The notes under the pieces are model-generated. The model saw only the letters and a program-made list of their open reading frames with translations. It was not told the origin of the DNA and did not search any database. This document shows, piece by piece, positions 4,655 through 37,755 of a DNA stretch of 37,755 nt (the first letter of the stretch is position 1; the number at the start of each line of letters is the position of its first letter). Position numbers and translations under genes: made by a program. Source of the DNA: Prochloron sp. SulCav_FS08_3_32_3330 (GTDB taxonomy: Bacteria > Cyanobacteriota > Cyanobacteriia > Cyanobacteriales > DYNF01); the NCBI GenBank assembly GCA_020721205.1, contig DYNF01000037.1, forward strand, positions 1 through 37,755. The letters run 5' to 3'.

Positions 4655-4969
4655 AAAAATCTCTCAATAATAACCTTTATGGTGTTGATTTTTTGATTAA
4701 ACGTCAAATTGACTAAGGGAAGGCTTGAAACCTTATTTTTTGGTTAGTACCAAAAAATAAGATTGCTTTTGTGTTAAAAAACCGAATAAGACAAATTTGA
4801 CTATATTTAATAGTAATTGCAAATCAGATATTTTGAGAATTTTTGCAAAATTACTTAACTTAATCAATATTTTAACCACTGTAGAGACGTAAAATTTTAC
4901 GTCTCTACAGTAAAATTTTACGTCTCTACCGTAAAATTTTACGTCTCTACAGTTGTTATTACCAAATGT
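4655..4969. other. Leader of the PPC-protein gene and repeat region
   Basis: The 315 bp contain a 13-bp inverted repeat with a 4-nt spacer (4732-4744 and 4749-4761, arms CTTATTTTTTGGT and its complement) upstream of the PPC-protein start, which could be an operator or leader hairpin, and the tandem palindrome at 4879-4952. No gene is seen. Confidence 0.6.
4879..4952. repeat. GTAGAGACGT palindrome with two extra tandem half-units
   Basis: A perfect 32-bp palindrome (4879-4910) is followed by two further 21-bp half-units (4911-4931 and 4932-4952) differing at one base. The right flank resembles that of the element at 2212-2303. Confidence 0.85.
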
Positions 4970-5225: not shown

Positions 5226-5295
5226 TAAATTATAGTCTAATAGCAAAAAAAAAATTGTGATTTTGATCACAATTTTACAAAAAGTTACATTTTTC

Positions 5296-5322
5296 TTTGC
5301 GCCTTTGCGCCTTTGCGAGAAA
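5296..5322. repeat. TTTGCGCC dispersed repeat
   Basis: The sequence TTTGCGCCTTTGCGCCTTTG followed by CGAGA is a tandem octamer repeat. It occurs again, inverted, near 31781-31806 inside a larger inverted repeat. The element is common in cyanobacterial intergenic DNA. Confidence 0.75.
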
Positions 5323-8344: not shown

Positions 8345-8515
8345 AGCTTATATAGAAAATTAGAATAATCAATTCTAAATTTAGTATACAATGATACAGA
8401 ATTATTATTGGTTATTTTAGATATTAATTCAATCTTCCCATAAAAATATAATTAAATGGTTATCAATAGCTTAAGATTCGTTAAACGATTTGTTAAATAA
8501 AAAATAAAGACATAA

Positions 8516-8607
8516 TATTAAAAAAATCAACCTGCGTATGCCTGTTTTGCTTATGTAGCAACAGGTTTGTTTCAACCTGTTGCTTTTTGGAGAATGAAAA
8601 CACCATG
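8516..8607 (-). repeat. Three-copy hairpin repeat, copy 1 (truncated, inverted)
   Basis: Read on the minus strand it starts at GGTGTTTTCATTCTCC, has the hairpin GCAACAGGTT/AACCTGTTGC (8558-8583) and then the conserved single-stranded stretch ACATAAGCAAAACAGGCATA. It ends soon after CGCAGGTT, lacking the later hairpins of the copies at 25436 and 37590. One stem pair is changed on both sides relative to the other copies. Confidence 0.85.
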
Positions 8608-8609
8608 CT

Positions 8610-8643
8610 ACAGTAGAGACGTAATATATTACGTCTCTACTGT
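8610..8643. repeat. 34-bp perfect palindrome of the GTAGAGACGT family, variant centre
   Basis: The half ACAGTAGAGACGTAATA is followed by its exact complement. The centre reads AATATATT instead of the AAAATTTT seen at 2250 and 4879, so both halves changed together. It lies just behind the stop codon of nfu and could serve as its transcript end. Confidence 0.85.
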
Positions 8644-11400: not shown

Positions 11401-12624
11401 TTAGATATTAGACTGTTTAACATATTCTCTTAATACAGGTATTAAATCATAAAAATTATCTTTTTGTTCAATTAAACAACGTCGCTTTAAAGATGTTAAA
11501 ATATTTAATAAATCTCCTACTGAATTTTGACTTTTTTCGCTTAAACTTAATAAATTAACAGGTTTATTTTCCTGAGCTAATAATTTTAAAACTTGTTTTT
11601 CGATGGCTGTTAAACGGTTAATTTGTTGTTGTAAATTGTCTTTTAAATCTTCTGGTAATAAAATAACATCTTTTGTTAATAAATCTGTCATATTTACATC
11701 TAATTCTTGAATTAAATTAGCTACAGATTTTAAATATAAAGGATTACCTTGATAATAGTTAATTAAAGTTTCTAAATTATTAATATTTTCTATGCCATAA
11801 TCCTTAAATATTAACCTAATTGCATCAATATCTAAACCAGTTAATGGGAAATTACAAATATAATTATTTTTAGGTTTAAATTGAGTAAATTCTCTAGGTG
11901 CTTTCCCACCAATTAAAATTAAACAACTTTGATGAACTAATTTTGCCCCATCTTGAAAAAATGAGCAATATTCTTCACAATGATTTTGATATTTTCCAGC
12001 TAATTCACCTTTACAAAAAAGATAATTAACATTATCTAAAACGATTAAACAGCGATATTTTTGTAAATATTTAGTTAAGGATAAAACCTTTTGATTATTG
12101 TTAGGAAAATTAAGGTTTTCTGACTCTAAGAAAAACTCTTGTAAATGCTCTTTAAAATCTGTAAAATTCTGATAATTAGCTAAATTTAACCAGATAAATG
12201 ATTGAAAATGATGATTAATTTCTGATACTAATTTAACAGCTAAACTGGTTTTACCAATACCACTAATACCCGTAATTGTAATTAACCGACATTTATTTTC
12301 TAGGATTAAATTATTAAGATTTTCTAATTCATTATTTCGATTATAAAAAAGATCAAGATCAGGCATTTCACTTAAATCTTGATGAGATATTTTCGGAGAT
12401 TTTGAGTTAGAAATATTCTCATTTGTCAAGTTTGAATTAGGAAGATCAGGAGGATGTCTAGCTTTTTCACAAAAGTTAATATTACTAATATTTACAGAAT
12501 CTTGTGTAATTTGTGCGAAATTTTGAGAAAATAAAGAAATTTGTAACCTCTGTATTGCTGATCTAAAATTCGATTTACTAACTTTTTCTCCTAATTCTTG
12601 TGAAAGAGTTTGCCATAATTCCAT
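11401..12624 (-). CDS. STAND/NB-ARC-type ATPase with vMAP-like N-terminus, probably 5'-truncated
   Basis: From the first ATG the protein has 407 residues. An N-terminal helical region typical of cyanobacterial NB-ARC proteins (MELWQTLSQELGEKVSK) is followed by a linker and an ATPase core with Walker A GISGIGKTSL and Walker B CLIVLDNV, and a winged-helix-like tail. It lacks WD40 or TPR effector repeats. The conserved N-terminal domain clearly continues upstream of this ATG in the same frame (see 12625-12748) back to a TGA, with no ATG, GTG or TTG, so the gene has probably lost its start. Such proteins are usually NTP-driven switches in signalling or defence. Confidence 0.75.
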   Translation of the reverse strand: MELWQTLSQELGEKVSKSNFRSAIQRLQISLFSQNFAQITQDSVNISNINFCEKARHPPDLPNSNLTNENISNSKSPKISHQDLSEMPDLDLFYNRNNELENLNNLILENKCRLITITGISGIGKTSLAVKLVSEINHHFQSFIWLNLANYQNFTDFKEHLQEFFLESENLNFPNNNQKVLSLTKYLQKYRCLIVLDNVNYLFCKGELAGKYQNHCEEYCSFFQDGAKLVHQSCLILIGGKAPREFTQFKPKNNYICNFPLTGLDIDAIRLIFKDYGIENINNLETLINYYQGNPLYLKSVANLIQELDVNMTDLLTKDVILLPEDLKDNLQQQINRLTAIEKQVLKLLAQENKPVNLLSLSEKSQNSVGDLLNILTSLKRRCLIEQKDNFYDLIPVLREYVKQSNI

Positions 12625-12748: not shown

Positions 12749-12830
12749 CAAAATCAAAGTGGATATTTGGCGATTTTAATTGATCTCTTTAAAAAGTTGG
12801 ACAATTGTGATTGCTAATCTCAATAAGTTA

Positions 12831-12895
12831 GTAGGGTGGGCAACAAAATTAATCAAAACAATTAATTATTAATTTTGAAATGTTGCCCACCTTAC
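12831..12895 (+). repeat. Island hairpin repeat R1
   Basis: Founder example of the 64-65 bp repeat: left arm GTAGGGTGGGCAACA, an A/T-rich middle, right arm TGTTGCCCACCTTAC. The arms are near-complementary and would form a long hairpin. It is upstream of the relE/phd module. Confidence 0.85.
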
Positions 12896-12907
12896 AATTT
12901 TTAGGTA

Positions 12908-12916
12908 TGTTATAAT
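12908..12916 (+). promoter_or_regulatory. Extended -10 promoter after R1
   Basis: TGTTATAAT, an extended -10 (TGnTATAAT), lies 13 bases after repeat R1 and 47 bases before the relE start. The same GGTATGTTATAAT string follows R3. Confidence 0.6.
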
Positions 12917-12963
12917 TTATATTTAATAATATTAAAATAAACTAATTTAAGGAGAATTGAGTT

Positions 12964-13260
12964 TTGTCATATCGTATTGCTCTTTCTAAAAATAGTTTAG
13001 CTCACTTTCAAAGTTTTACTAAAAGAGAGCAAAACATAATTAAAGATGCTATGATTGAACAATTAACCTTTGAGCCAAATTTACCTACTAGAAACCGTAA
13101 AGAAATGCGTCCTAATTTACTTGCAGTTTGGGAATTGAGAATAGGAAACTTCCGAGTATATTATGATATAGATGAGGAAGAATCTATTGTAGATATTCGT
13201 GCAATTGGTATTAAAAAAGGTAATCAAATTTGTATTAATCAGGAGATTATTGATTTATGA
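12964..13260 (+). CDS. RelE/ParE-type toxin
   Basis: The 98-residue protein starts at TTG (MSYRIALSKNSLAHF) with AAGGAG upstream. It has the RelE/ParE layout: a basic helical part (TKREQNIIKDAM) followed by strands LLAVWELRIGNFRVYYDID and a final VDIRAIGIKKGN. RelE-like toxins cut mRNA on the ribosome; ParE-like ones poison gyrase; the choice cannot be made here. The antitoxin gene follows with a 4-base ATGA overlap, toxin first as in higBA-type pairs. Confidence 0.85.
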   Translation: MSYRIALSKNSLAHFQSFTKREQNIIKDAMIEQLTFEPNLPTRNRKEMRPNLLAVWELRIGNFRVYYDIDEEESIVDIRAIGIKKGNQICINQEIIDL

Positions 13261-13490
13261 ATAAAGTTGAAATCAATCAAATTAGTTCAGTTTTAGAAAA
13301 ATATAATACAAAAGAAAAACCCGTTATTATAACTCGAAATGGACAACCTGTAGCGGCAATGTTTCCCCTCGAAGAAAATATTGATTTAGAAACATTTAGT
13401 TTGAGTATTGATCAGAAATTTATTGAGATTATTGAACAATCAAGAAAAAGTCAACAAGAAGAAGGGAGAATTTTTCTTGATGAGATTTAA
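13257..13490 (+). CDS. Phd/YefM-type antitoxin
   Basis: The 77-residue protein has the Phd/YefM fold: MNKVEINQISSVLEKY followed by KPVIITRNGQPVAAMFPLEE (about 20-39), then a helical, acidic toxin-binding tail. It overlaps the toxin gene by four bases. The repeat R2 begins nine bases after its stop codon. Confidence 0.85.
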   Translation: MNKVEINQISSVLEKYNTKEKPVIITRNGQPVAAMFPLEENIDLETFSLSIDQKFIEIIEQSRKSQQEEGRIFLDEI

Positions 13491-13498
13491 GTTATTTT

Positions 13499-13562
13499 GT
13501 AGGATGAGGACTAAATTAATCAAAACAATTAATCTTTGATTTTGAAATGTTGTCCACCTTAC
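13499..13562 (+). repeat. Island hairpin repeat R2
   Basis: A copy of the 64-bp repeat with a diverged left arm (GTAGGATGAGGACTA) and right arm TGTTGTCCACCTTAC. The arms pair less well than in R1. Confidence 0.85.
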
Positions 13563-13653
13563 AATAATTTTTAGAAAATAAGTTAAAGTAATCTTGTGAA
13601 TTTTTAAATGATCATTTATAATAAAAAAATCTATTTAGATTGAGTAAGTAACT

Positions 13654-13866
13654 ATGACGAATAATCTTAAAGAAGAAGCAAAAGAATTAATTAAAAATCT
13701 CCCTGACAATTTCACTTGGGATGATTTAATGTATCAAATTTATGTGAGACAAGCGATTGAATCTGGTTTACAAGATAGTAAAGAAGGTAAAGTTATTTCT
13801 GTAGACAAAGTAAAAGAAAAATTAGGATTGTCCCTGAATTTCAAAATCAAGAAATTCGAGAAATAA
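13654..13866 (+). CDS. RelB/ParD-like antitoxin with scrambled C-terminus
   Basis: The 70-residue protein starts MTNNLKEEAKELIKNLPD and has DDLMYQIYVRQAIESGLQD and VISVDKVKEKLG, the layout of small cyanobacterial antitoxins that partner RelE/ParE toxins. After about residue 58 the frame leaves the family and reads through a toxin remnant in another frame (see 13821-13883). The antitoxin is probably still made, with an altered tail and without its original partner. Confidence 0.65.
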   Translation: MTNNLKEEAKELIKNLPDNFTWDDLMYQIYVRQAIESGLQDSKEGKVISVDKVKEKLGLSLNFKIKKFEK

Positions 13867-13883
13867 TTGATGTGGAAGGATGA
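13821..13883 (+). pseudogene. Remnant of a RelE/ParE toxin
   Basis: In a different frame from the antitoxin the bases encode RIVPEFQNQEIREI and then run into a stop. RelE/ParE toxins carry a core of the form GRIVPE..N..IREI just before their last strands, so this is the middle of a lost toxin. Its start and its catalytic end are missing, which points to a deletion that joined antitoxin and toxin. Confidence 0.6.
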
Positions 13884-14031
13884 AATCGTGGAGGAAATTC
13901 ACAAAATTAGAGAAGCTCATGCTCAAGCTTTTAATTATGATTTAAAAGCGATGTTTGCGGATTGGCAAAAAAAACAAGATGCTAGGGGTAGAAAAGTTAT
14001 TAAACTTCCAATTAAGCAAATTACAAATTAA
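13870..14031 (+). CDS. Small conserved cyanobacterial protein, 53 residues
   Basis: An ATG at 13870 opens a 53-codon frame: it starts MWKDEIVEEIHKIREAHAQA and continues with FNYDLKAMFADWQKK and RGRKVIKLP. I recognise this as a recurring cyanobacterial small-protein family found next to toxin-antitoxin genes, function unknown, perhaps an antitoxin-like partner. GGTAGAAAAG-type basic residues near the end give a charged tail. It overlaps the toxin remnant and is followed by repeat R3 after 14 bases. Confidence 0.7.
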   Translation: MWKDEIVEEIHKIREAHAQAFNYDLKAMFADWQKKQDARGRKVIKLPIKQITN

Positions 14032-14045
14032 GTAATAAATAGTTA

Positions 14046-14110
14046 GTAGGGTGAGGCAACAAAATTAATCAAAAGATTAATCTTTGATTTTGAAGTGTTG
14101 CTCACCTTAC
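14046..14110 (+). repeat. Island hairpin repeat R3
   Basis: Left arm GTAGGGTGAGGCAACA, inner stem ATTAATC/GATTAAT, right arm TGTTGCTCACCTTAC. The change GTGAG/CTCAC is matched on both arms relative to R1 (GTGGG/CCCAC), that is, a compensatory pair. Confidence 0.85.
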
Positions 14111-14122
14111 AATTTTTAGGTA

Positions 14123-14131
14123 TGTTATAAT
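14123..14131 (+). promoter_or_regulatory. Extended -10 promoter after R3
   Basis: TGTTATAAT, identical to the one after R1 and at the same distance from the repeat, 52 bases before the antitoxin start at 14183. Confidence 0.6.
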
Positions 14132-14182
14132 ATCAAGCAGTAATTTTAAGTAACCTATAATAAAAAGTCACTAAAAAAATCA

Positions 14183-14425
14183 ATGAAAACCAAAGAAATA
14201 AAAGTAACTATCACTAATCAGGGTGAATTATTACTAAAATCACCTCTAAATTTACCAAAAGGAAATTATGATGCAGTGTTAATTTTTAATGAACAATCTG
14301 TTGATAATGATAGACAATTATCCATTGAAAAAGCTCAGGCACTGATTAGAAAATATATTCCCGAAACTAGAAATTTAGCACAGGAATTAATTGAAGAACG
14401 AAGATTAGAGGCTTTAAATGAATAA
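14183..14425 (+). CDS. Antitoxin of a PIN-domain module
   Basis: The 80-residue protein has an N-terminal beta-rich half (IKVTITNQGELLLKSPLNLP) and a helical, charged C-terminal half (LSIEKAQALIRKYIPE, LAQELIEERRLEALNE). It fits the VapB-like antitoxins that precede PIN toxins in cyanobacteria, though the family name is uncertain. Its end overlaps the toxin start by eight bases. Confidence 0.75.
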   Translation: MKTKEIKVTITNQGELLLKSPLNLPKGNYDAVLIFNEQSVDNDRQLSIEKAQALIRKYIPETRNLAQELIEERRLEALNE

Positions 14426-14801
14426 AGTTGTGATAGATGCTTCTGCAATTTTAGCTTTACTTAATCAAGAAAAAGGAAGTGAAGAAATTGCCAAATATAT
14501 TGATCAAGCTGTTATTAGTACAGTCAATTTATCAGAAGTAATTGCAAAATTAGCAGAGGCAGGAATACCAGAGAATACAATTAAAGAAATTCTCTCCTAT
14601 CTTAATCTTGAAGTAATACCTTTTAATGAAGATCAAGCCTTTAAAGCAGGAACACTTCGCCCTCTAACAAAATCAATTGGACTTTCACTCGGTGATCGTG
14701 CTTGTCTTGCGTTAGGTATTGCTCTTAATTTACCTGTTATTACTACTGATCGTTTATGGAGTAGTCTTAATCTTGAAATTGAAGTGCGAGTTTTGCGTTA
14801 A
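14418..14801 (+). CDS. vapC: PIN-domain ribonuclease toxin (VapC type)
   Basis: The 127-residue PIN protein has the acidic residues in place: D7 in VVIDASA, E in NLSEVIAKL, D in LSLGDRACLALG and D in VITTDRLW. VapC toxins cleave specific RNAs with bound magnesium or manganese. It looks complete. It overlaps its antitoxin gene, and repeat R4 starts 19 bases after its stop. Confidence 0.9.
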   Translation: MNKVVIDASAILALLNQEKGSEEIAKYIDQAVISTVNLSEVIAKLAEAGIPENTIKEILSYLNLEVIPFNEDQAFKAGTLRPLTKSIGLSLGDRACLALGIALNLPVITTDRLWSSLNLEIEVRVLR

Positions 14802-14820
14802 TATTAATATATAAAAGTTA

Positions 14821-14885
14821 GTAGGGTGAGGCAACAAAATTAATTACAAGATTAATCTTTGATTTTGAAATGTTGCCCACCTTAC
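14821..14885 (+). repeat. Island hairpin repeat R4
   Basis: Left arm GTAGGGTGAGGCAACA, right arm TGTTGCCCACCTTAC. It lies between the tail ends of two convergent modules: the PIN module on the plus strand and the RelE-like module on the minus strand. Confidence 0.85.
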
Positions 14886-14893
14886 AATTATTA

Positions 14894-15184
14894 TTAGGGA
14901 TGGGGTGTAATAGCAATAATTGTAATTATGCCTTGAGTGGGTCCATAATACCAAAAAACTCGAAAGGCACCGGGTGTTTTATTTTCCACATAAGCCTCAA
15001 AGACTTCTTCATTATTAGGTCCAGATAAAGAATTATATTTATGAGTATGTAAACTGTGATGACGTAAATTAGTAGATATTAAGCCTAAAGTTTTCAAAAC
15101 TTTCTTATATTTTTGCGGATCAATTTCTTCAAGATTTGTTAAAATATTTTTAGCTTCTGTAGAAAATTCAAGACGAAAATTCAT
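14894..15184 (-). CDS. RelE/ParE-like toxin
   Basis: The 96-residue protein reads MNFRLEFSTEAKNILTNLEE, then a helical part, then GAFRVFWYYGP and GIITIIAITPHP, the strand layout of RelE/ParE-like proteins with a final ITPHP. Its start overlaps the antitoxin stop (TAATG). This is the only module of the island on the minus strand. Confidence 0.75.
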   Translation of the reverse strand: MNFRLEFSTEAKNILTNLEEIDPQKYKKVLKTLGLISTNLRHHSLHTHKYNSLSGPNNEEVFEAYVENKTPGAFRVFWYYGPTQGIITIIAITPHP

Positions 15185-15474
15185 TAGTCATCAATCTCCA
15201 AGTCTTGATATTGGGAAAAATCTCCTAAATAATGAATTTCTCCTTTAGATGCCTGTTCAATTCCTTTTTTGACAGAAGCGATCACCTCTGAATTTTGCCA
15301 TAACCATTGTTCTTCTTGAGGTATATTAGTAATTGGCTCTAATAAAATTTGTCCTGAATTATTAGTAAAAATACGATATTCTGTTAACTTATTTTCTAAT
15401 TGTAAATTAAGACATCCTTTTTCATCTGTATGAATAGAATCTTTGATTAACCAAATTTGTTCTTTTGCTATCAT
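15184..15474 (-). CDS. Antitoxin partner of the RelE-like toxin
   Basis: The ATG at 15474 (MIAKEQIWLIKDSIHTD) is preferred; the frame stays open further upstream, but that part runs toward repeat R5. From 15474 the protein has 96 residues, with a beta-rich start, an NSEVIASVKKGIEQASKGEI helix and an acidic tail ending LEIDD. This layout is common in cyanobacterial antitoxins whose C-terminus wraps the toxin. The gene precedes the toxin and overlaps it at TAATG. Confidence 0.72.
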   Translation of the reverse strand: MIAKEQIWLIKDSIHTDEKGCLNLQLENKLTEYRIFTNNSGQILLEPITNIPQEEQWLWQNSEVIASVKKGIEQASKGEIHYLGDFSQYQDLEIDD

Positions 15475-15545
15475 AAAATTATTGCCTTTATTAGATAAAA
15501 GTTGATTTATACAGTTGTTTAGATTATAACATAAGTTATTAGTTA

Positions 15546-15609
15546 GTAGGGTGGGTAACAAAATTAATCAAAAGATTAATTTTTGATTTTGAAGTGTTGC
15601 CCACCTTAC
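15546..15609 (+). repeat. Island hairpin repeat R5
   Basis: Left arm GTAGGGTGGGTAACA, inner stem ATTAATC/GATTAAT, right arm TGTTGCCCACCTTAC. Although the module before it is on the minus strand, the repeat keeps the same orientation as R1-R4. Confidence 0.85.
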
Positions 15610-15637
15610 AATTATTATTAGAAAAGTATGTTTTTGA

Positions 15638-15646
15638 TGATATAAT
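15638..15646 (+). promoter_or_regulatory. Extended -10 promoter after R5
   Basis: TGATATAAT, within GAAAAGTATGTTTTTGATGA, a string also found after R7 with one change. The downstream DUF433 gene starts 34 bases later. Confidence 0.6.
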
Positions 15647-15679
15647 TAATAAATATTAATAACCCAATCTTGATTGATT

Positions 15680-15970
15680 ATGTTGACACAAACTGTCTCT
15701 CATTATGTTACCCGTAATTCTGAAATTTTAGGCTCAGAGCCAATTATTACAGGTACTAGGACTTCTGTTCGTGCGATCGTTGGTCTTTGGCGTTTAGGTA
15801 TTATGCCGGAAGAAATCCTCAATCATTTACCACATTTAACTTTAGCACAAATATTTGATGCTTTAAGTTTTTATTTAGATCATCAAACGGAAATTAATGA
15901 GTATATTGAGAATAATCAAGTTCCTGATGAGTTAGTTCATCCCTGTGTTAAAGCTTTTTTAAATCAATGA
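15680..15970 (+). CDS. DUF433 antitoxin
   Basis: From the ATG at 15680 the protein has 96 residues. The segment SEPIITGTRTSVRAIVGLWR and the helix-turn-helix-like tail HLPHLTLAQIFDALSFYL are DUF433 signatures. DUF433 proteins are the antitoxins of DUF5615 PIN-like toxins. Its stop overlaps the ATG of the partner by four bases (ATGA), but that partner is cut short. Confidence 0.88.
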   Translation: MLTQTVSHYVTRNSEILGSEPIITGTRTSVRAIVGLWRLGIMPEEILNHLPHLTLAQIFDALSFYLDHQTEINEYIENNQVPDELVHPCVKAFLNQ

Positions 15971-16119
15971 AAAATTTTGCTAAACTTTACACTGATGAGG
16001 ATATGTCCGCATTAGTGGCAACATTTTTGCGTTCTCGTGGTTTGGATATTACCACTGTACCAGAACAATCAAAAATTGGTAAAGTCAGCAACAAAATTAA
16101 TCAAAAGATTAATCATTAA
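15967..16119 (+). pseudogene. DUF5615 PIN-like toxin, truncated by a repeat
   Basis: The frame starts MKNFAKLYTDEDMSALVATF and continues as DUF5615 to about residue 38 (VPEQSKIG). It then runs into repeat R6, which supplies the last dozen codons (KVSNKINQKINH) and the stop. The normal protein is about twice as long or more; the missing part includes the later acidic residues of the PIN-like site. It is very likely inactive. Confidence 0.8.
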
Positions 16120-16142
16120 TTTTGAAATGTTGCCCACCTTAC
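16079..16142 (+). repeat. Island hairpin repeat R6
   Basis: This copy starts GTAAAGTCAGCAACA rather than GTAGGGTGGGCAACA and is nearly identical to R8 over its whole length. It directly cuts the DUF5615 frame. The right arm TGTTGCCCACCTTAC is intact. Confidence 0.85.
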
Positions 16143-16164
16143 TACTTTTAATCCTAATTTAAGC

Positions 16165-16170
16165 TATAAT
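16165..16170 (+). promoter_or_regulatory. -10 promoter after R6
   Basis: TATAAT within AATCCTAATTTAAGCTATAA, a second promoter type of the island. Closely related strings lie at 17358-17383 and upstream of thiO/G at 18385-18390. Confidence 0.5.
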
Positions 16171-16215
16171 CAATTTAAAAATTAATTATTAATTACTAAT
16201 TACCCAAAAATTAAG

Positions 16216-16578
16216 ATGATCAACTTAACATTATCAAAAGCTGATTTATTTCCTAATCTTAAAGTAACACTTTTATTAGAATCACTCACATCAGGACAAT
16301 TTATCGCATCTATTCGAGAATTTCCTGACTGTCGAATACAAGCAGAAACAAAAGAAATAGCGATCGCCCAATTACAAGCTACTTTTTTAGAAAGATTGCC
16401 AAAAATCGAGGCTATTGCTTGGGAAATACCACTTCAAACAATAGAGCCACCTTGGCAGGAATATGTAGGAATTTTTCAAGATGATCCAGATTTTACTGCT
16501 GTTATGGAGTCAATTAATGCTAAAAAAAACTCAGATGATGACTCAGAAGTTGATTCTTCTTATTATTTAGAGAGGTAA
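16216..16578 (+). CDS. HicB-like antitoxin of a PIN toxin
   Basis: The 120-residue protein has a HicB-like beta-sheet part, GQFIASIREFPDCRIQAET followed by the helix KEIAIAQLQATFLERL, and an acidic C-terminal arm with PPWQEYVGIFQDDPDF that probably binds the toxin. The fold assignment is by pattern only. The PIN toxin gene follows after four bases. Confidence 0.7.
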   Translation: MINLTLSKADLFPNLKVTLLLESLTSGQFIASIREFPDCRIQAETKEIAIAQLQATFLERLPKIEAIAWEIPLQTIEPPWQEYVGIFQDDPDFTAVMESINAKKNSDDDSEVDSSYYLER

Positions 16579-16582
16579 ATAA

Positions 16583-17002
16583 GTGTTATATATTCTTGAT
16601 ACAGATTGTGTTTCTCTAATACTTTATAATCATCCTCAAATAGTAGCTAAAGCGAAAAATAATCAAATTGCAATTACAATTATTACAGTTCAAGAATTAT
16701 TTAATGGTTGGATTGGAAGAATTAACGATCCATCTCAAATCAATAACCTTAATCCACTTTATTCAAAACTTTGGATAACAGTAAAATATATTCAAACAAT
16801 TGATGTTTTAAATTTGACAAATGAAGCTGAACTTTGTTTAAAAAATTTATTAAAAAATAATCCTCCTCTAAGAAAAAATCGTCTGCAAAAAGATTTAAGA
16901 ATTGGGGCTATTGCGTTATCTCTTGGTGCTACAATTGTTACTCGTAATCAAAGAGATTTTAGTCAAATTCCCGGACTTTTGATTGAAGATTGGACTATTT
17001 AG
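16583..17002 (+). CDS. vapC: PIN-domain ribonuclease toxin (VapC type)
   Basis: The start is GTG (LYILDTDCVSLI follows) with AGAGG upstream. The 139-residue protein keeps the acidic residues of the PIN site: D6 in LDTD, E in VQELFNGW, D in KDLRIGAIAL, and the RNQRDF end. It closes with LLIEDWTI, the same last residues as the fusion gene at 17143. Repeat R7 starts seven bases after its stop codon. Confidence 0.9.
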   Translation: MLYILDTDCVSLILYNHPQIVAKAKNNQIAITIITVQELFNGWIGRINDPSQINNLNPLYSKLWITVKYIQTIDVLNLTNEAELCLKNLLKNNPPLRKNRLQKDLRIGAIALSLGATIVTRNQRDFSQIPGLLIEDWTI

Positions 17003-17008
17003 TAGTTT

Positions 17009-17072
17009 GTAGAGAGAGGCACAAAATTAATCAAAAGATTAATCTTTGATTTTTAAGTGTTGCTCACCTTAC
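17009..17072 (+). repeat. Island hairpin repeat R7
   Basis: The left arm is diverged (GTAGAGAGAGGCACA), the right arm is TGTTGCTCACCTTAC. It is followed by the same promoter block as R5. Confidence 0.85.
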
Positions 17073-17097
17073 AATTATTAGAAAAGTATGTTTTTGA

Positions 17098-17106
17098 TGG
17101 TATAAT
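17098..17106 (+). promoter_or_regulatory. Extended -10 promoter after R7
   Basis: TGGTATAAT, in a block that matches the one after R5 over more than 30 bases. The fusion gene starts 37 bases downstream. Confidence 0.6.
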
Positions 17107-17142
17107 TAATATATATTAATAACTAATTTAAGGAAAATAACA

Positions 17143-17349
17143 ATGACAATTAATATTATAGAAACAAGACTTTCCGCAGTGGAAGAAGCGATCACTCAAT
17201 TACAAAAACAAGTAGCTACCCATCAAATTAATTGGCTAGAACAAATTACAGGCTCTTTTGAAAATGAACCAGCTTTTGAGGAGGTACTTGCTTATGGAAA
17301 AGCTATTCGTCAGGGAAATGAATCAATTATCGAAGATTGGACAATTTAA
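17143..17349 (+). pseudogene. Antitoxin fused to the last residues of a PIN toxin
   Basis: The 68-residue frame starts as a coiled-coil antitoxin (TRLSAVEEAITQLQKQVATH, then WLEQITGSFENEPAFEEVLA) but ends ESIIEDWTI. These last residues, IEDWTI, are the C-terminus of the PIN toxin at 16583-17002. The simplest reading is a deletion that joined the antitoxin tail to the final codons of its own toxin and removed the toxin body. The antitoxin part might still be made. Confidence 0.7.
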
Positions 17350-17518
17350 GTTATTAAATTTTAATCCTAATTTAAGGTATAATCATAATAAATATTACAA
17401 TATTGGGATTAATTATGACGATCAAAGAACAGTCTGTTTGCTCACCGTTTAATAGTTACAAAATCATTAAATTATGATATAATCAAGATAAGTTTCAATT
17501 TTAATAAATGTAATAACA
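17350..17518 (+). other. Scar of a lost module, with promoters
   Basis: The segment starts with a promoter block like that after R6 (TATAAT at 17378-17383), then an ATG with MTIKEQ codons (17415), which soon runs into TGTTTGCTCACCGTTTAATA. That string resembles the right arm of the island repeat (TGTTGCTCACCTTACAATTA). A further extended -10, TGATATAAT at 17475-17483, serves the next module. Confidence 0.55.
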
Positions 17519-17749
17519 ATGCTGACAACTAATATTAACAATAAAAAACAATATTTAACAGACGAACAAGATAATAAAATTGCAGTAGTAATTGACATTG
17601 ATAGCTATCAGCAATTTTTAAAAGAACCGTCTAAATTAACAGAGTCGGAAACAAAATTAGAAGAACTATTAGAATTTGCTGGAACTTGGCAAGGAGATGA
17701 TTTAGCAGAATGTTTAGATTTAGTTTATCAAAGTCGTTCTCGTTTTTAA
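17519..17749 (+). CDS. Phd-like antitoxin
   Basis: The 76-residue protein reads NKKQYLTDEQDNKIAVVIDI, then DSYQQFLKEPSKL, then an acidic tail with ELLEFAGTWQGDDLAECLDL. The LTDE..KIAVVI..YQQFL pattern is that of Phd/YefM-related antitoxins that partner PIN toxins. The toxin follows after three bases. Confidence 0.75.
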   Translation: MLTTNINNKKQYLTDEQDNKIAVVIDIDSYQQFLKEPSKLTESETKLEELLEFAGTWQGDDLAECLDLVYQSRSRF

Positions 17750-17752
17750 ATT

Positions 17753-18196
17753 ATGTATTTATTAGACACTAATCATTGTAGTTTGATTTTACAAGGTGAT
17801 TCTAATTTACTTACCCAGTTACAAGTCAAAGTTAATGCTAGTGTTGCTATATCTAGTATTGTGGCAGGTGAATTATTATTTATGGCACAAAAATCCGAAC
17901 AAAAAATTAATAATTTAATCCAAGTAAGAGCTTTTTTAAACAAGATTAGAATTTATCCAGTTAACTTAGAAATTGCTGAAATTTATGGAGAATTTAAAAC
18001 AGAATTAATCAATAAATTTGGGGCAAAAGATAAACAAAAACGTCGTAAAATGAAAATAGAACAACTTGGGTTTAGTGATCATGATGTTTGGATTGCTTCA
18101 ACAGCAATTTATTATTCTTTGATCGTTGTTTCTTGTGATAGTGATTTCCAGAGGATGAGACAGGTAAAAATATTTGATTTAGAATCATGGATTTAG
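17753..18196 (+). CDS. vapC: PIN-domain ribonuclease toxin (VapC type)
   Basis: The 147-residue PIN protein has D5 in LLDTNHCS, E in IVAGELLFMA, D in FSDHDVWIASTA and D in VSCDSDF, so the active site looks whole. Its stop codon touches the first base of repeat R8. This is the last module of the array. Confidence 0.92.
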   Translation: MYLLDTNHCSLILQGDSNLLTQLQVKVNASVAISSIVAGELLFMAQKSEQKINNLIQVRAFLNKIRIYPVNLEIAEIYGEFKTELINKFGAKDKQKRRKMKIEQLGFSDHDVWIASTAIYYSLIVVSCDSDFQRMRQVKIFDLESWI

Positions 18197-18259
18197 TAAA
18201 GTCAGCAACAAAATTAATCAAAAGATTAATCATTAATTTTGAAATATTGTCCACCTTAC
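18196..18259 (+). repeat. Island hairpin repeat R8
   Basis: Nearly identical to R6 (GTAAAGTCAGCAACA... start), with two changes in the right arm. It begins at the last base of the vapC stop codon. It closes the array. Confidence 0.85.
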
Positions 18260-18384
18260 AAATTTTTTAATCCGAATTTAAAATAGAACAAAACTAACTT
18301 TAATATTTGCTTTATTCACTTTAATTATTAGAGAATTTGTTAAAATTCTTATCATTGATCAAGTTTTTGATCGGTCATTTAAGC

Positions 18385-25435: not shown

Positions 25436-25632
25436 GGAGGCAACGGGTTGAAACCCGTTGCGACAGAAGCAGGGCGTTTTCATTCTCCAAAAAGCAACGG
25501 GTTGAAACCCGTTGCTACATAAGCAAAACAGGCATACGCAGGTTTAAATTTTTAATCTTAGTTAATATTTAATCATAAAACCCGTAAAGACGGGTTTTGT
25601 TTGGGTAGCAACGGGTTTTAACCCGTTGCTTT
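25436..25632 (+). repeat. Three-copy hairpin repeat, copy 2 (longest)
   Basis: The copy has four hairpins: GCAACGGGTT/AACCCGTTGC at 25440-25461 and again at 25494-25515, AAAACCCGT/ACGGGTTTT at 25577-25598, and GCAACGGGTTTTAACCCGTT closing at 25629. The stretch GCAAAACAGGCATACGCAGG between them is conserved in the other copies. It lies between two minus-strand genes. Confidence 0.88.
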
Positions 25633-26306: not shown

Positions 26307-26344
26307 TTTTTTGAATCATTTAATCAATATCAATAAATATAATT

Positions 26345-26410
26345 GTTAGGTTAGCAACAATCAGAATTAATTTTTTATCTAATTGATTCAATTTTGTTGC
26401 CCACCCTACT
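26345..26410 (-). repeat. Outlying copy of the island repeat, inverted
   Basis: On the minus strand the arms are GTAGGGTGGGCAACA and TGTTGCTAACCTAAC with a diverged middle. It lies upstream of the carotenoid oxygenase gene, far from the island. Confidence 0.75.
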
Positions 26411-30155: not shown

Positions 30156-31745
30156 ATGACTAAAGCACTGTTAATTTACCCAATTTTTCCTCCTACTTTC
30201 TGGTCTTATGACAAAATTTTAGAGTTAGTAAATCGTAAGGTTTTATTACCACCTTTAGGCTTAATTACTGTAGCAGGTATTTTACCACAATCATGGGAAT
30301 TTAAGTTAGTAGATCGCAATATTCGCCCCGCTACGGAAGCTGAATGGGCATGGGCTGATCTTGTCATAATTTCTGGTATGATTGTGCAAAAAAATGACAT
30401 GATTGATCAAATTAAAGAGGCAAAAAAAAGAAATAAATTAGTAGCTGTAGGTGGACCTTATGCTACTTCTGTACCCCATGAATTACAAAATTCTGGCGTA
30501 GATTTTTTAATCTTAGATGAGGGTGAAATTACTTTACCCATGTTTGTGTCTGCCTTTGAAAATGGGGATACTAGCGGTGTTTTTCGTACTACTGAAAAAC
30601 CGGATGTTACTATTACCCCTGTTCCCCGTTATGATTTATTAGAATTATCTGCTTATGATTCTATGTCGGTACAATTTTCGAGGGGTTGTCCTTTTCAATG
30701 TGAATTTTGCGATATTATTGTGCTTTATGGACGTAAACCTCGCACTAAAAATCCTGAACAATTATTAAAAGAATTAGATTGTCTTTATGATTTAGGTTGG
30801 AGGCGATCGGTGTTTATGGTAGATGATAATTTCATTGGCAATAAACGCAATGTGAAACTGTTATTAAAAGAGTTAAAAATATGGCAAGAAAATCATCAAT
30901 ATCCTTTTGATTTTAACACAGAAGCTTCCATAGATTTAGCCTCTGATCAAGAATTAATGGATATGATGGTAGAATGTAATTTTAATGGAGTATTTTTAGG
31001 GATTGAAACACCTGATGAAGATAGTTTACAATTAACTAAAAAATTCCAAAATACCAGAAGTTCTTTAAGTGAATCTGTCGAAAAAATTATTAAAACTGGT
31101 TTACGTCCGATGGCTGGTTTTATTATTGGTTTTGATAACGAGAAAAAAGGCGCGGCAACCAGAATTATTAATTTTGTAGAGGAATCTGCTATACCTACCG
31201 CTATGTTTGGGATGTTACAAGCATTACCTAATACTGCTTTATGGCATCGTTTAATTAAGGAAGAAAGATTATTAGATCCTGATAAAGATCAAGACGGAAA
31301 TCAAACTACTTTAATGAATTTTATTCCTACTCGTCCAGTGGAAGATATAGCCCAAGAATATATCGAAACTTTTTGGACTTTATATGATCCAAATCAATAT
31401 TTAGATCGGGTTTATCGTTGTTTTTTAAAATTAGGTAGTCATAAATTTAAAACCGATTCTCAACTCCCAAGTTGGACTGATTTAAAAGCATTAGGAATTG
31501 TGATTTGGCGACAAGGTTTTAAACGTAATACCCGTTGGAAATTTTGGCATCATTTATTTAGTATTATCAAAAATAATCCGGCAGTTTGGGATCATTATTT
31601 AACGATTTGTGCGCATAATGAACACTTTTTAGAATATCGTGAAATTGTTAAACAACAAATTGAAGATCAACTGGCTGAATATTTAAAACGGGAGGCTTTA
31701 ATTAAAGAAAATCAAGTTAATGTAGGGTGGGCAGTTTTGAAATAA
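30156..31745 (+). CDS. B12-binding radical SAM protein (DUF4070), paralogue 1
   Basis: The 529-residue protein has an N-terminal B12-binding-like domain (about 1-150, PPLGLITVAGILPQSWEFKL; no classic DxHxxG seen) and a radical SAM core with C178-P-F-Q-C182-E-F-C185. The C-terminal DUF4070 part has WRQGFKRNTRWKFWHHLF. The family includes HpnP-type hopanoid methylases, but many members have no known substrate. The second copy at 34184 shares FSRGCPFQCEFCDIIVLYGR exactly. Confidence 0.88.
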   Translation: MTKALLIYPIFPPTFWSYDKILELVNRKVLLPPLGLITVAGILPQSWEFKLVDRNIRPATEAEWAWADLVIISGMIVQKNDMIDQIKEAKKRNKLVAVGGPYATSVPHELQNSGVDFLILDEGEITLPMFVSAFENGDTSGVFRTTEKPDVTITPVPRYDLLELSAYDSMSVQFSRGCPFQCEFCDIIVLYGRKPRTKNPEQLLKELDCLYDLGWRRSVFMVDDNFIGNKRNVKLLLKELKIWQENHQYPFDFNTEASIDLASDQELMDMMVECNFNGVFLGIETPDEDSLQLTKKFQNTRSSLSESVEKIIKTGLRPMAGFIIGFDNEKKGAATRIINFVEESAIPTAMFGMLQALPNTALWHRLIKEERLLDPDKDQDGNQTTLMNFIPTRPVEDIAQEYIETFWTLYDPNQYLDRVYRCFLKLGSHKFKTDSQLPSWTDLKALGIVIWRQGFKRNTRWKFWHHLFSIIKNNPAVWDHYLTICAHNEHFLEYREIVKQQIEDQLAEYLKREALIKENQVNVGWAVLK

Positions 31746-31851
31746 ATTTTAGGCGTTGCATAATTAAGGTATGATAAAATCTCGCAAAGGCGCAAAGGCG
31801 CAAAGAAATATTTTTAAATCATACCTTCATTTAGCAACGCTAAATTTTATT
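31741..31851. repeat. Large imperfect inverted repeat with TTTGCGCC core
   Basis: The left arm AATTTTAGGCGTTGC...AAGGTATGAT and the right arm ATCATACCTT...GCAACGCTAAATTTTA pair imperfectly over about 30 bases each. Between them lies CGCAAAGGCGCAAAGGCGCA, the complement of the repeat at 5296-5322. It fills most of the gap between the radical SAM and methyltransferase genes. Confidence 0.7.
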
Positions 31852-34183: not shown

Positions 34184-35803
34184 ATGAAAGTTCTACTGAT
34201 TTATCCTCTATTTCCTAAAAGTTTTTGGTCTTTTGAAAAAACCCTCGAATTGGTAGGGCGAAAAGCGATGTTACCTCCCCTCGGTTTAATTACCGTCGCC
34301 GGAATATTACCCTCACAATGGGAATTGAAGTTAGTCGATCGCAACGTGGAAGATATCACCGAAGCACAATGGGAATGGGCGCAAATCGTGATTTTATCCG
34401 GCATGATCGTGCAAAAACAAGATTTATTAGATCAAGTTACCGAAGCAAAACGACGGGGTAAAAAGGTTGCTGTGGGCGGACCCTACGCTACTGCTTTACA
34501 TGAGGAAGTGGAAGCTGTGGGTGCTGATTACCTCATTTTAGATGAGGGAGAAATTACTATTCCTCTGTTTGTGTCTGCGGTAGAAAACGGAGTAACCTCT
34601 GGTATTTTTCGTTCTAATGGGGAAAGACCTGATGTTACCACAACTCCGATCGCCCGTTTTGACCTCTTAAAATTTGATGCTTATTCGGAAATGGCGGTAC
34701 AATTTTCCCGAGGTTGTCCTTTTCAATGTGAGTTTTGTGATATAATTGTACTTTATGGACGGAAACCTCGGACAAAATCCCCGGAACAAATGATCGCTGA
34801 ATTAGAGCGACTTTATGAGTTAGGATGGCGACGGAGTATTTTTATGGTAGATGATAATTTTATTGGTAATAAACGTAATGTGAAATTATTACTGAAAGAA
34901 TTAGCACCTTGGATGAAAGAAAAGGGATATCCTTTCACTTTTGCCACTGAAGCATCGGTGGATTTAGCAAATGATCAAGAATTGATGGACTTAATGACGG
35001 AGTGTAATTTTGGGGCGGTTTTCCTCGGTATTGAAACTCCCGATACTGATAGTTTAACGGTGACTCAGAAATATCAGAATACAAGGGATCCTTTAAGTGA
35101 GTCTGTCCAGAAAATTATTAAATCAGGATTGCGAGTAATGGCAGGATTTATCGTCGGTTTTGATGGGGAAAAATCCGGCGCAGGCGATCGCATCGTTAAT
35201 TTTGTGGAAAAAACCACCATTCCGATCGCCTTATTTAGTATGTTACAGGCGTTACCTGATACGGCTTTATGGCATCGTTTGAAAAAAGAAGGGCGTTTAC
35301 AAGCTGAATCTGCTAACATTAATCAGACCACTTTAATGAATTTTATTCCTACTCGTCCGATAGAAGAAATTGCCTTAGAATTTGTTAATAGTTTTTGGGA
35401 ATTATACGATCCAGAAAAGTTTTTAGATCGCACTTATCGTCATTATCGGATCTTAGGAGAAGCCCCTTGTCATAATGACCCGAATAAGAAGAAAAAACGC
35501 AAAGAGAAAAAGCCTTTAGAGTGGATAACAATTCGGGCATTTTTAACGATTTGTTGGCGACAAGGTTTCATCAGAAAAACACGCTGGAAATTCTGGGTAT
35601 ATTTATTAGAAATGTATCGTTATAATCGTGGTGGTATTCCTAGTTATTTATCAGTTTGTGCGCAGATTGAACACTTTTTAGAATATCGTCAAATAGTTAA
35701 AGATGAAATTTCTGCACAAATTGATGAATATTTAAAACAAGAAGCTTTACTAAAGGAAAATCAAGCAAAAGTTAAGCAAGAAATTACGGCGATCGCTAGT
35801 TAA
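34184..35803 (+). CDS. B12-binding radical SAM protein (DUF4070), paralogue 2
   Basis: The 539-residue protein has the same layout as paralogue 1: B12-binding-like start (LPPLGLITVAGILPSQWELK), SRGCPFQCEFC cluster site, DUF4070 tail. It carries a lysine-rich insert (NKKKKRKEKKP) near residue 440 that the other copy lacks. HIP1 octamers lie inside the gene and it is somewhat richer in G+C than paralogue 1, which suggests it is the older resident. Confidence 0.88.
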   Translation: MKVLLIYPLFPKSFWSFEKTLELVGRKAMLPPLGLITVAGILPSQWELKLVDRNVEDITEAQWEWAQIVILSGMIVQKQDLLDQVTEAKRRGKKVAVGGPYATALHEEVEAVGADYLILDEGEITIPLFVSAVENGVTSGIFRSNGERPDVTTTPIARFDLLKFDAYSEMAVQFSRGCPFQCEFCDIIVLYGRKPRTKSPEQMIAELERLYELGWRRSIFMVDDNFIGNKRNVKLLLKELAPWMKEKGYPFTFATEASVDLANDQELMDLMTECNFGAVFLGIETPDTDSLTVTQKYQNTRDPLSESVQKIIKSGLRVMAGFIVGFDGEKSGAGDRIVNFVEKTTIPIALFSMLQALPDTALWHRLKKEGRLQAESANINQTTLMNFIPTRPIEEIALEFVNSFWELYDPEKFLDRTYRHYRILGEAPCHNDPNKKKKRKEKKPLEWITIRAFLTICWRQGFIRKTRWKFWVYLLEMYRYNRGGIPSYLSVCAQIEHFLEYRQIVKDEISAQIDEYLKQEALLKENQAKVKQEITAIAS

Positions 35804-36010: not shown

Positions 36011-37465
36011 ATGGATAAAAAACCTGCTCAAAATACCTATTTACAACAAGTTTTACAGGAACAAGAAGAAGTTAATCTAAAATTACAAAAAAGACGGGCT
36101 TTCCCACAGCCAACTAATGCTCCGGCTATGGTACAGAGTAATTTTCAAGCAATGAGTGATAGTTTTGCTAATAATGAGATTAGTTCACCTCCTCATATTG
36201 GTAAAGCGGTAGAATATCGAATAACAGGTTTTTGGTTGTGGAAAACGGTGGTTGTTCCTCCTAATGTTTATGTAGTTCATACTCGTAGAGGACAGGATCA
36301 ACCTATTCATATTGGGAGAGGAATTTCTTTTCCTTTTAACCCTTTAACTGATGCTTTTTTAGTTATACCTTCTGCTGTTCAAACTATCTTAATTAATGCT
36401 AATTGTATTTGTATTGAACGTCAAGGAATTTTAGTTCAAGCTTATGTACAATGGATTATTGATGACATTAAAACTGCTTATTGGAAATTAGATTTTTCTG
36501 ACCCGGAAGATCAAATGGGTATTGTTAATCTTCAATTAAGAGAACAGGCTGAAGCGGCTATTAAAGATAAGGTAGCTACGATGAGTATTGATGAAGTTTT
36601 AAGCGATAAACAACCAATAATTGAAGAATTAACTCATCGTTTACAAAATGTAGCTGAAGGTAACAAAGATAATCAGGGAACTTATGAAGGTTTAGGCTTA
36701 AAAATTGTTACTGTACAGATAAAAGAAGCGGTAGTTAGTTCAGCCCAATTATGGCAAAATTTACAAATTCCTTTTCGAGTTGAAAGGGAAAAATTGGCAC
36801 GTTTAGCTGAGTTACAAAATAGTGAAGAAATTAAGAAAAGGGAGTTAGAAAATAGAGTAATTCAAGAAAGAGCAGAATTAAATGCTCAAAGTGAATTAGA
36901 TATTTTAAAAGCTACTCAAGAAAAGACGAAATATGATCGAGAATATAGTGAAATGTTACGTCGTCACACTTTGAATGAAGAAGCGATCAGACAAAAATTA
37001 ATCGAAGAAAATGCAACTTTTCAAGCTAAAAATGAGGCAAAATTAGAGTTAGTTTTACAGGAATTAGAGTTAGAAAAAAGACGGATTACTGTGGAAAAAG
37101 AAAAAGTTACAGAACAAATACTTTTAGATGAAATTCAAAGACAAAAAGTGAAAGCAGAGGTAACAGGAACTTTAGATCTTCAACAATTACAAAATCTTGC
37201 TGATTTTGAACAAAAACAACGGGAATTAAATTTAGAAAAAGAAAGAAAAGACCTTGAAAATAATATTTCTGAAAGTAATCTTCAAGGTCAATTAATTACA
37301 CAATTACCGGAAATTGCGAAAAATTTACCGATGCCGGATCAACAAAATACGACAATTATTACTACAGATAATCAAGAGGGAAATCTTAATACTTTATTAG
37401 GTTTTATTAGTAGTATTTTAAGTTTATTAAAATCAGAAAAAAAGGAGCTTGAAAATAAATTGTAG
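36011..37465 (+). CDS. SPFH (band 7/flotillin-like) protein with long coiled coil
   Basis: The 484-residue protein has an SPFH domain (about 70-260: VVVPPNVYVVHTRRGQDQPI, then AYVQWIIDDIKTAYWKLDF) and a charged coiled coil (about 265-420, EKLARLAELQNSEEIKKREL). There is no clear N-terminal membrane segment; a short hydrophobic stretch, LLGFISSILSLL, lies at the C-terminus. SPFH proteins form large membrane-bound rings. The partner is unknown. The stop codon lies inside the start of the repeat at 37462. Confidence 0.85.
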   Translation: MDKKPAQNTYLQQVLQEQEEVNLKLQKRRAFPQPTNAPAMVQSNFQAMSDSFANNEISSPPHIGKAVEYRITGFWLWKTVVVPPNVYVVHTRRGQDQPIHIGRGISFPFNPLTDAFLVIPSAVQTILINANCICIERQGILVQAYVQWIIDDIKTAYWKLDFSDPEDQMGIVNLQLREQAEAAIKDKVATMSIDEVLSDKQPIIEELTHRLQNVAEGNKDNQGTYEGLGLKIVTVQIKEAVVSSAQLWQNLQIPFRVEREKLARLAELQNSEEIKKRELENRVIQERAELNAQSELDILKATQEKTKYDREYSEMLRRHTLNEEAIRQKLIEENATFQAKNEAKLELVLQELELEKRRITVEKEKVTEQILLDEIQRQKVKAEVTGTLDLQQLQNLADFEQKQRELNLEKERKDLENNISESNLQGQLITQLPEIAKNLPMPDQQNTTIITTDNQEGNLNTLLGFISSILSLLKSEKKELENKL

Positions 37466-37526
37466 GGGGCAACTTTTTAAAAAGAAACAATTAATATTTT
37501 AATAAATAATAAGTTGCCAACCTTAC
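37462..37526 (+). repeat. Outlying copy of the island repeat
   Basis: Left arm GTAGGGGGCAACTTT, right arm AAGTTGCCAACCTTAC. The SPFH stop codon TAG (37463-37465) is formed by the repeat's own second to fourth bases. Confidence 0.7.
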
Positions 37527-37589
37527 AATTTTTTATGATCTAAAAAAGTTCGTAGTTGGGCTTCGGTTTCCCAATCTAGTTAGGGCTAA

Positions 37590-37755
37590 AGCAGGGTGTT
37601 TTCATTCTTCTGAATGCAACGGGTTGAAACCCGTTGCTACATAAGCAAAACAGGCATACGCAGGTTGAATTTTTTTAATATTAGTTAATATTTAATTTTA
37701 AAACCCGGGTCGCCCGTGGTTTTGTTTGAGTAGCAACGGGTTTTAACCCGTTGAA
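37590..37755 (+). repeat. Three-copy hairpin repeat, copy 3 (cut by window end)
   Basis: Starts GCAGGGTGTTTTCATTCT, then GCAACGGGTT/AACCCGTTGC (37616-37637), the conserved GCAAAACAGGCATACGCAGG, a hairpin AAAACCCGGG..CCCGTGGTTTT, and a last hairpin that the window cuts. The second hairpin has a different sequence from copy 2 but the same shape. Confidence 0.85.

Follow-up and report, generated by a model that had tools for sequence, protein, structure and literature searches.

The repeat found at three sites of the window (the whole stretch of DNA analysed, 37,755 nucleotides of a Prochloron sp. assembly) is probably a nested non-autonomous mobile element, in which an ISAs1-type MITE forms the outside and a tnpA-less form of a subclass 1.2 element the inside. 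A preliminary description, made from the letters of the window, had offered two alternatives, a structured RNA and a non-autonomous mobile element with folded ends; the latter is retained here, with two layers, and the former gained no support.

The three copies lie where they had been described (8516-8607 inverted, 25436-25632 and 37590-37755) and are intergenic in position. They have in common GCAAAACAGGCATACGCAGG and the GCAAC(G/A)GGTT hairpin; copy 1, on the minus strand, does carry an A-T pair on both hairpin arms, and the second hairpin, though altered in sequence (AAACCCGTAAAGACGGGTTT in copy 2, AAAACCCGGGTCGCCCGTGGTTTT in copy 3), retains its shape. Two points of the description are amended. 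Copy 2 was correctly placed but not correctly delimited: the element begins at 25470, and 25440-25461 is a separate lone hairpin. The set of three is real but forms part of a far larger family, for which a search of the genome from which the window comes (the own genome hereafter) returned around 60 near-full-length matches at 88-100% identity. All three window copies are parts of a single ~184-bp element, shortened by truncation or by the end of the contig: the right terminal repeat that the family consensus places after hpA' is missing from copy 2, and copy 3 is cut at the contig end, the window being the entire contig C92. The features are as follows, with their basis in brackets where one applies.

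25440..25461, plus strand: isolated hairpin of hpA sequence, lying upstream of copy 2 and outside the element (sequence)
25470..25486, plus strand: copy 2, left terminal inverted repeat CAGGGCGTTTTCATTCT, ISAs1 type (sequence; family of 428 ends; paired ends and duplications)
25494..25515, plus strand: copy 2, outer hairpin hpA, GCAACGGGTTGAAACCCGTTGC (sequence; pair counts)
25515..25529, plus strand: copy 2, CTAC foot plus linker CTACATAAGCAAAAC, for the most part complementary to 25594-25608 (sequence; pair counts)
25527..25544, plus strand: copy 2, inner hairpin hpB, variant AACAGGCATACGCAGGTT, in which two positions do not pair, a feature of 15 of the 72 copies (sequence; pair counts)
25578..25597, plus strand: copy 2, inner hairpin hpB', AAACCCGTAAAGACGGGTTT (sequence; pair counts)
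25594..25608, plus strand: copy 2, linker' GTTTTGTTTGGGTAG, with the GTAG foot at its end (sequence; pair counts)
25608..25629, plus strand: copy 2, outer hairpin hpA', GCAACGGGTTTTAACCCGTTGC (sequence against the consensus of genome copies)
8514..8607, minus strand: copy 1, left half only
8591-8607, minus strand: copy 1, decayed terminal repeat
8558-8583, minus strand: copy 1, hpA with the A-T pair and an enlarged loop
8529-8546, minus strand: copy 1, hpB
37592..37755, plus strand: copy 3 (the contig stops short of the right terminal repeat)
37592-37608, plus strand: copy 3, terminal repeat
37616-37637 and 37649-37666, plus strand: copy 3, hpA and hpB
37700-37723 and 37733-37753, plus strand: copy 3, hpB' and hpA'

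Other repeats accompany these copies in the window. A second palindromic repeat of ~70 nt (GTAGGGTGGGCAACAAAATTAATC...TGTTGCCCACCTTAC) is present in eight copies between small genes at 12829-18313, spaced 533-1187 bp apart in the manner of a cassette array, with an inverted copy at 26341-26410 and a similar palindrome near 37462-37530. Two of the small genes among them are PIN-domain genes (14418-14801 and 17753-18196), and a gene for an NB-ARC/STAND-type NTPase (11404-12624) adjoins this island. The short palindrome family GTAGAGACGTAAAATTTTACGTCTCTAC occupies 2253-2282, 4880-4909, 4922-4951 and 8612-8641, one of its members abutting the decayed end of copy 1. The repeat TCTCGCAAAGGCGCAAAGGCGCAAAGAAAAAT forms an inverted pair (5289-5320 and 31780-31811) that is 97% complementary, and two tandem similar genes (30156-31745 and 34184-35803) have 69-79% DNA identity over matching stretches.

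When copies are aligned with their flanks, the whole element has an AT-rich centre set among four hairpins, is bounded by a terminal repeat and its mirrored counterpart, and is flanked by a short direct target duplication. The terminal inverted repeats are CAGGGYGTTTTCATTCT, and the own genome holds 428 such ends at no more than one mismatch, as compared with a single one for the reversed control. This corresponds to roughly 200 copies, an estimate obtained by halving the number of ends, some of which come from other, longer elements. In 1.02 Mb of the own genome, made up of 61 stretches picked for holding repeat ends, so that their copy density does not stand for that of the genome, 78 end pairs were delimited, 72 of them being whole copies of ~184 bp. 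Direct duplications of at least 8 bp (at most one mismatch) border 49 of the 78 end pairs, where shuffled flanks averaged 2.0 and never exceeded 6. These target duplications are mostly 9-10 bp long, up to 11, and the ISAs1 family typically produces duplications of ~8-10 bp. The target pattern is weak, with CT at the start and AG at the end. A preference for insertion into hairpins was considered and is unsupported, a stem of at least 6 being present at 14% of 21 solo sites, 7.5% of random sites and 11% of nearby ones.

To judge from sequence, the outer layer is an ISAs1-type MITE, because its ends are those of ISAs1 elements. The sole ISAs1-type gene fragment of the own genome, which is decayed, starts ~97 bp inside such an end; ISAs1 genes with the same end are found in the relative G006; and relatives such as G012 carry intact 1.2-kb ISAs1 copies with a similar end (CAGGGCTGTTTCATTCT), coding for a 363-aa transposase that scores 257.9 bits against the NCBIfam ISAs1 model. 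In G006 we also observed a different MITE set (L094-L099), with the same CAGGGTGTTTTCATTCT ends and other interiors. No intact ISAs1 is present in the own assembly, and many of its contigs are interrupted within longer elements that bear the MITE end; the autonomous partner is therefore probably unassembled. Some copies of the MITE are organised in head-to-tail arrays with a period of ~192-195 bp. All arrays have this orientation, and the closest relative of a copy in an array is often not its array mate; duplication and repeated independent insertion cannot be separated as their origin.

The interior is organised as a module in the order hpA-CTAC-linker-hpB-spacer-hpB'-linker-GTAG-hpA', the two linkers being complementary. 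It occurs in 39 of 292 cyanobacterial genomes, with no match for reversed controls. Its core, AAAACMKGCMTACGCAGGTT, was found in at least 62 stretches of public genomes, mostly from Nostocales and other cyanobacteria. The few matches from other phyla include, among those listed, two Anaerolineales loci (L114 and L148) with module-like flanks; others look like chance matches. In cyanobacteria the core sits in the same module, either within MITEs that have different terminal repeats (TTAGAGGATGTTTGAAAAGT, TTGGTGTCAACTTAA and ACATCTTGCACC) or free-standing, with no detected terminal repeats. Among 100 distinct external left halves, 78 have a hairpin with a stem of at least 5 next to CTAC, built from 14 stem sequences; the corresponding frequencies are 3.4% in shuffled flanks and 5 of 100 in upstream windows. 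Because many cyanobacteria have it within different terminal repeats or without any, we regard the interior, on sequence grounds, as a module separate from the ISAs1 shell.

The own genome, from an organism that is the sole representative of its family in the genome set compared, contains 275 module halves, the most of all these genomes. Where both sides of a module could be read (119 cases), 67 lie between two ISAs1 ends, 25 have one and 27 have none. Tandem module arrays with a period of ~148-152 bp and without ISAs1 ends were observed at two places (L182, 12104-12407; L209, 11062-11358), which suggests that the module also multiplies locally outside the MITE shell. Within one genus, the presence of free-standing modules differs at syntenic sites. 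The empty sites that mobility would leave in relatives were found at one clean locus (L318 against L333) but not at the others. At that locus the boundary falls at the module edge with no duplication, and the difference could be a deletion rather than an insertion; L320 against L326 shows an interior deletion, and the remaining loci are replaced by unrelated intergenic sequence. A precise, duplication-free insertion of a free module was thus not proved among the syntenic loci compared.

A candidate for the enzyme that recognises the module comes from its genomic neighbourhood. In a search of the Y1 genes of module-bearing genomes, one Y1 gene (PF01797; locus L241) proved to have the left half of the module directly upstream. 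Its relatives with at least 70% identity occupy ten loci in the draw of 292 cyanobacterial genomes, all ten with module halves or whole modules on their flanks. In this group, clade A, a module half is nearby at 11 of 11 loci (10 by script and L241 by eye), as against 0 of 20 for the more distant relatives of clade B (~38-42% identity) and 0 of 29 for other Y1 genes of module-bearing genomes. Modules are present in all nine genomes that have a clade A gene, at 7 to 92 half-sites per genome, and in 30 of the 283 without one; this association (Fisher p ~6e-9) is confounded by kinship, and the comparison of module counts within one family gives p = 0.007. In three clade A genomes most of the modules inspected are free-standing, and their flanks vary between copies. 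The DH[VI]H, WQ and YIRNQxxHH motifs (the Y---Q--HH pattern) are present in all 11 clade A proteins, and by these motifs alone clade A is assigned, putatively, to TnpA-Y1 subclass 1.2. The nearest solved structure by sequence is that of the ISHp608 transposase. The own genome contains no clade A transposase.

Most clade B proteins have the same motif set. The module is absent from their loci, most of which are flanked by paired hairpins of other sequence, such as CAGGGAATAAATTCCCTG and AGTCGGTTAAAACCGACT upstream, mirrored downstream in L282. Under a common definition (two stems of at least 6, 22-38 nt apart and within 180 bp of the gene), clade A shows paired hairpins upstream in 10 and downstream in 8 of 11 genes, and clade B upstream in 9 and downstream in 11 of 14; the controls yielded 0 of 13 on either side of other Y1 genes and 5-7% of random windows in clade A and B loci. 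These 25 loci suggest that cyanobacterial members of subclass 1.2 commonly have paired-hairpin ends.

The GTAG foot raises the question of a classical GTAG-tagged REP doublet (BIME or REPIN) moved by a canonical RAYT (TnpA-REP). The foot beside each outer hairpin, the inverted doublet and the structured spacer are all as in Di Nocera 2013, and canonical RAYTs with flanking GTAG hairpins do exist in Tildeniella. In Tildeniella nuda, RAYT-like genes with GTAG-tagged hairpins on both sides were observed at L252, a canonical REP-associated tyrosine transposase at 209 bits, and at L259. The hairpins at these loci are, however, other than those of the module, and the transposase that does flank the module (L241) is above the NCBIfam cut-off for IS200/IS605 (69.5 bits against 55) and below that for REP_Tyr_transpos, the RAYT model (29 bits against 80). 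Hairpins next to a GTAG foot in inverted pairs are hence present, and a cognate canonical RAYT is absent by NCBIfam score. The own genome is itself without a RAYT: both of its Y1 genes score as IS200, and no GTAG hairpins lie beside them. We consider movement by a canonical RAYT very unlikely.

The hairpins themselves were studied by direct pair counts over 72 own-genome copies, with pairs of the terminal inverted repeats (TIRs) as internal control, and the covariation described from three copies holds in this larger set. In hpA', the pair 144/155 is GC in 44 copies, AT in 27 and broken in 1, and the pair 146/153 is GC in 56, AT in 16 and broken in none; in hpB', 116/121 is TA in 62, GC in 9 and broken in 1. 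Changes were placed on a tree built from other columns, which is weakly resolved and on which recombination between copies would inflate the counts. Those affecting both sides, from Watson-Crick to Watson-Crick, amount to 16 of 17, 9 of 9 and 6 of 7 for these three pairs; in hpA they reach 7 of 12 at one pair and only 3 of 19 at another. For the TIR pair 6/179 (CG 40, TA 5, TG 14 and CA 12) both sides changed in 4 of 29 cases, and for three other TIR pairs in 0 of 14. The GTAG/CTAC foot pairs are nearly invariant. Most hairpin pairs vary in a coupled manner, and the TIRs independently. Double changes also occur at the non-partner hpA' columns 144/153 (7 of 20), which implies that the stems partly move as units, and in 15 of the 72 copies two positions of hpB do not pair. 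Selection on folding and template switching in short palindromes both fit these data. The absence of clade A from the own genome leaves template switching as a possible source, and the coupling is not to be credited with certainty to the transposase.

It could accordingly be supposed that the element is an ordinary ISAs1 MITE, the inner hairpins having no working link to a second transposase and their arms being matched by template switching. The missing clade A gene, the imperfect hpB of those 15 copies, tolerated without loss, and the 67 of 119 classified modules that lie between two ISAs1 ends are in line with this supposition. It sits poorly with the free-standing modules, and those in other MITEs, of many cyanobacteria, and with the specific association of the module with one transposase clade. 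It seems to us unlikely as a full explanation, although it may account for the coupling inside the own genome. The coupled stems and uncoupled TIRs also fit a module recognised by its fold that hitchhikes in a DDE-type MITE.

Coupled changes, together with a strong fold on either strand and the intergenic position of the window copies, would also fit a structured RNA (a small RNA, a terminator or a 3'-UTR element) selected for its fold. This reading is extremely improbable. The window gave no Rfam match at gathering score, the sub-threshold hits being mostly to miRNA-type models, as expected for a palindrome. The preferred strand of the fold is inconsistent across genomes, the plus strand folding better in 15 of 37 external copies and in 68 of 72 own copies, where two nearly fixed linker columns form G-T in that orientation. 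Moreover, the module is common to several mobile elements and flanks a transposase.

For the nested element we propose the following mechanism. The outer MITE would be copied in trans by an ISAs1 (DDE) transposase, which would read the MITE ends as double-stranded DNA and make target duplications of 9-11 bp. The inner module would be recognised through its folded ends by a single-strand (HUH, Y1) subclass 1.2 TnpA and, since it flanks a Y1 transposase of that type in relatives, it is most plausibly that element's tnpA-less form. In the own genome it would now spread mainly as cargo of the MITE. Movement of the MITE by the ISAs1 transposase is deduced from its ends; cutting and movement of the module by the subclass 1.2 TnpA is the likeliest reading of the neighbouring genes; and capture of the module by the MITE, and not the reverse, is what we infer. 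More broadly, and with a confidence only slightly better than even, it can be hypothesised that the cyanobacterial subclass 1.2 TnpA is the mover of the four-hairpin module class, with sequence families that follow the branches of the transposase, and that unrelated DDE-type MITEs repeatedly capture and amplify modules in genomes that lack it. The 184-bp element points to two modes of recognition in one unit, double-stranded TIRs and folded stems. It also suggests that a palindromic repeat can persist after the loss of its own transposase, as a passenger of an unrelated MITE.

The outer layer resembles IS-derived MITEs, in this case derived from ISAs1, in being short and non-coding, with terminal inverted repeats of an IS family, target duplications and many copies. 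It differs from them in carrying a four-hairpin module that is common to MITEs with other TIRs and to a Y1 transposase, and in forming head-to-tail arrays with one copy of the target duplication between units. Nezha and other MITEs of cyanobacteria are comparable as such, the match being by name and not by sequence. PATEs (palindrome-associated transposable elements) and other tnpA-less IS200/IS605 derivatives are likewise non-autonomous, with palindromic ends and a presumed single-strand transposase acting in trans; by description, not sequence, the module is set apart from PATEs by its two hairpins per end and its presence inside DDE-type MITEs as well. GTAG-tagged REP dimers and REPINs with their RAYT (Di Nocera 2013, PMC3733652; Bertels and Rainey 2011, PMC3116915) have in common with the module the GTAG foot and hairpin, the inverted doublets and the structured spacer, but here NCBIfam scores do not class the flanking transposase as a RAYT. 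GTAG-12, -15 and -16 of PMC3733652 were compared by description rather than by sequence, and the module may equal one of them; the same paper reports A. variabilis GTAG-15 dimers inside long palindromes, a precedent for nesting (Di Nocera 2013). A further likeness is to TnpA-Y1 subclass 1.2 as set out by Quentin et al. 2018 (PMC6006769), with which clade A has in common the DH[VI]H, WQ and Y---Q--HH motifs and a home in Cyanobacteria. There the subclass is listed as lacking REP and, in general, secondary structures at its termini, whereas most of the genes examined here are flanked by paired hairpins. The module is thereby a candidate substrate for an HUH transposase subclass listed there without one, the activity of which is testable in vitro.
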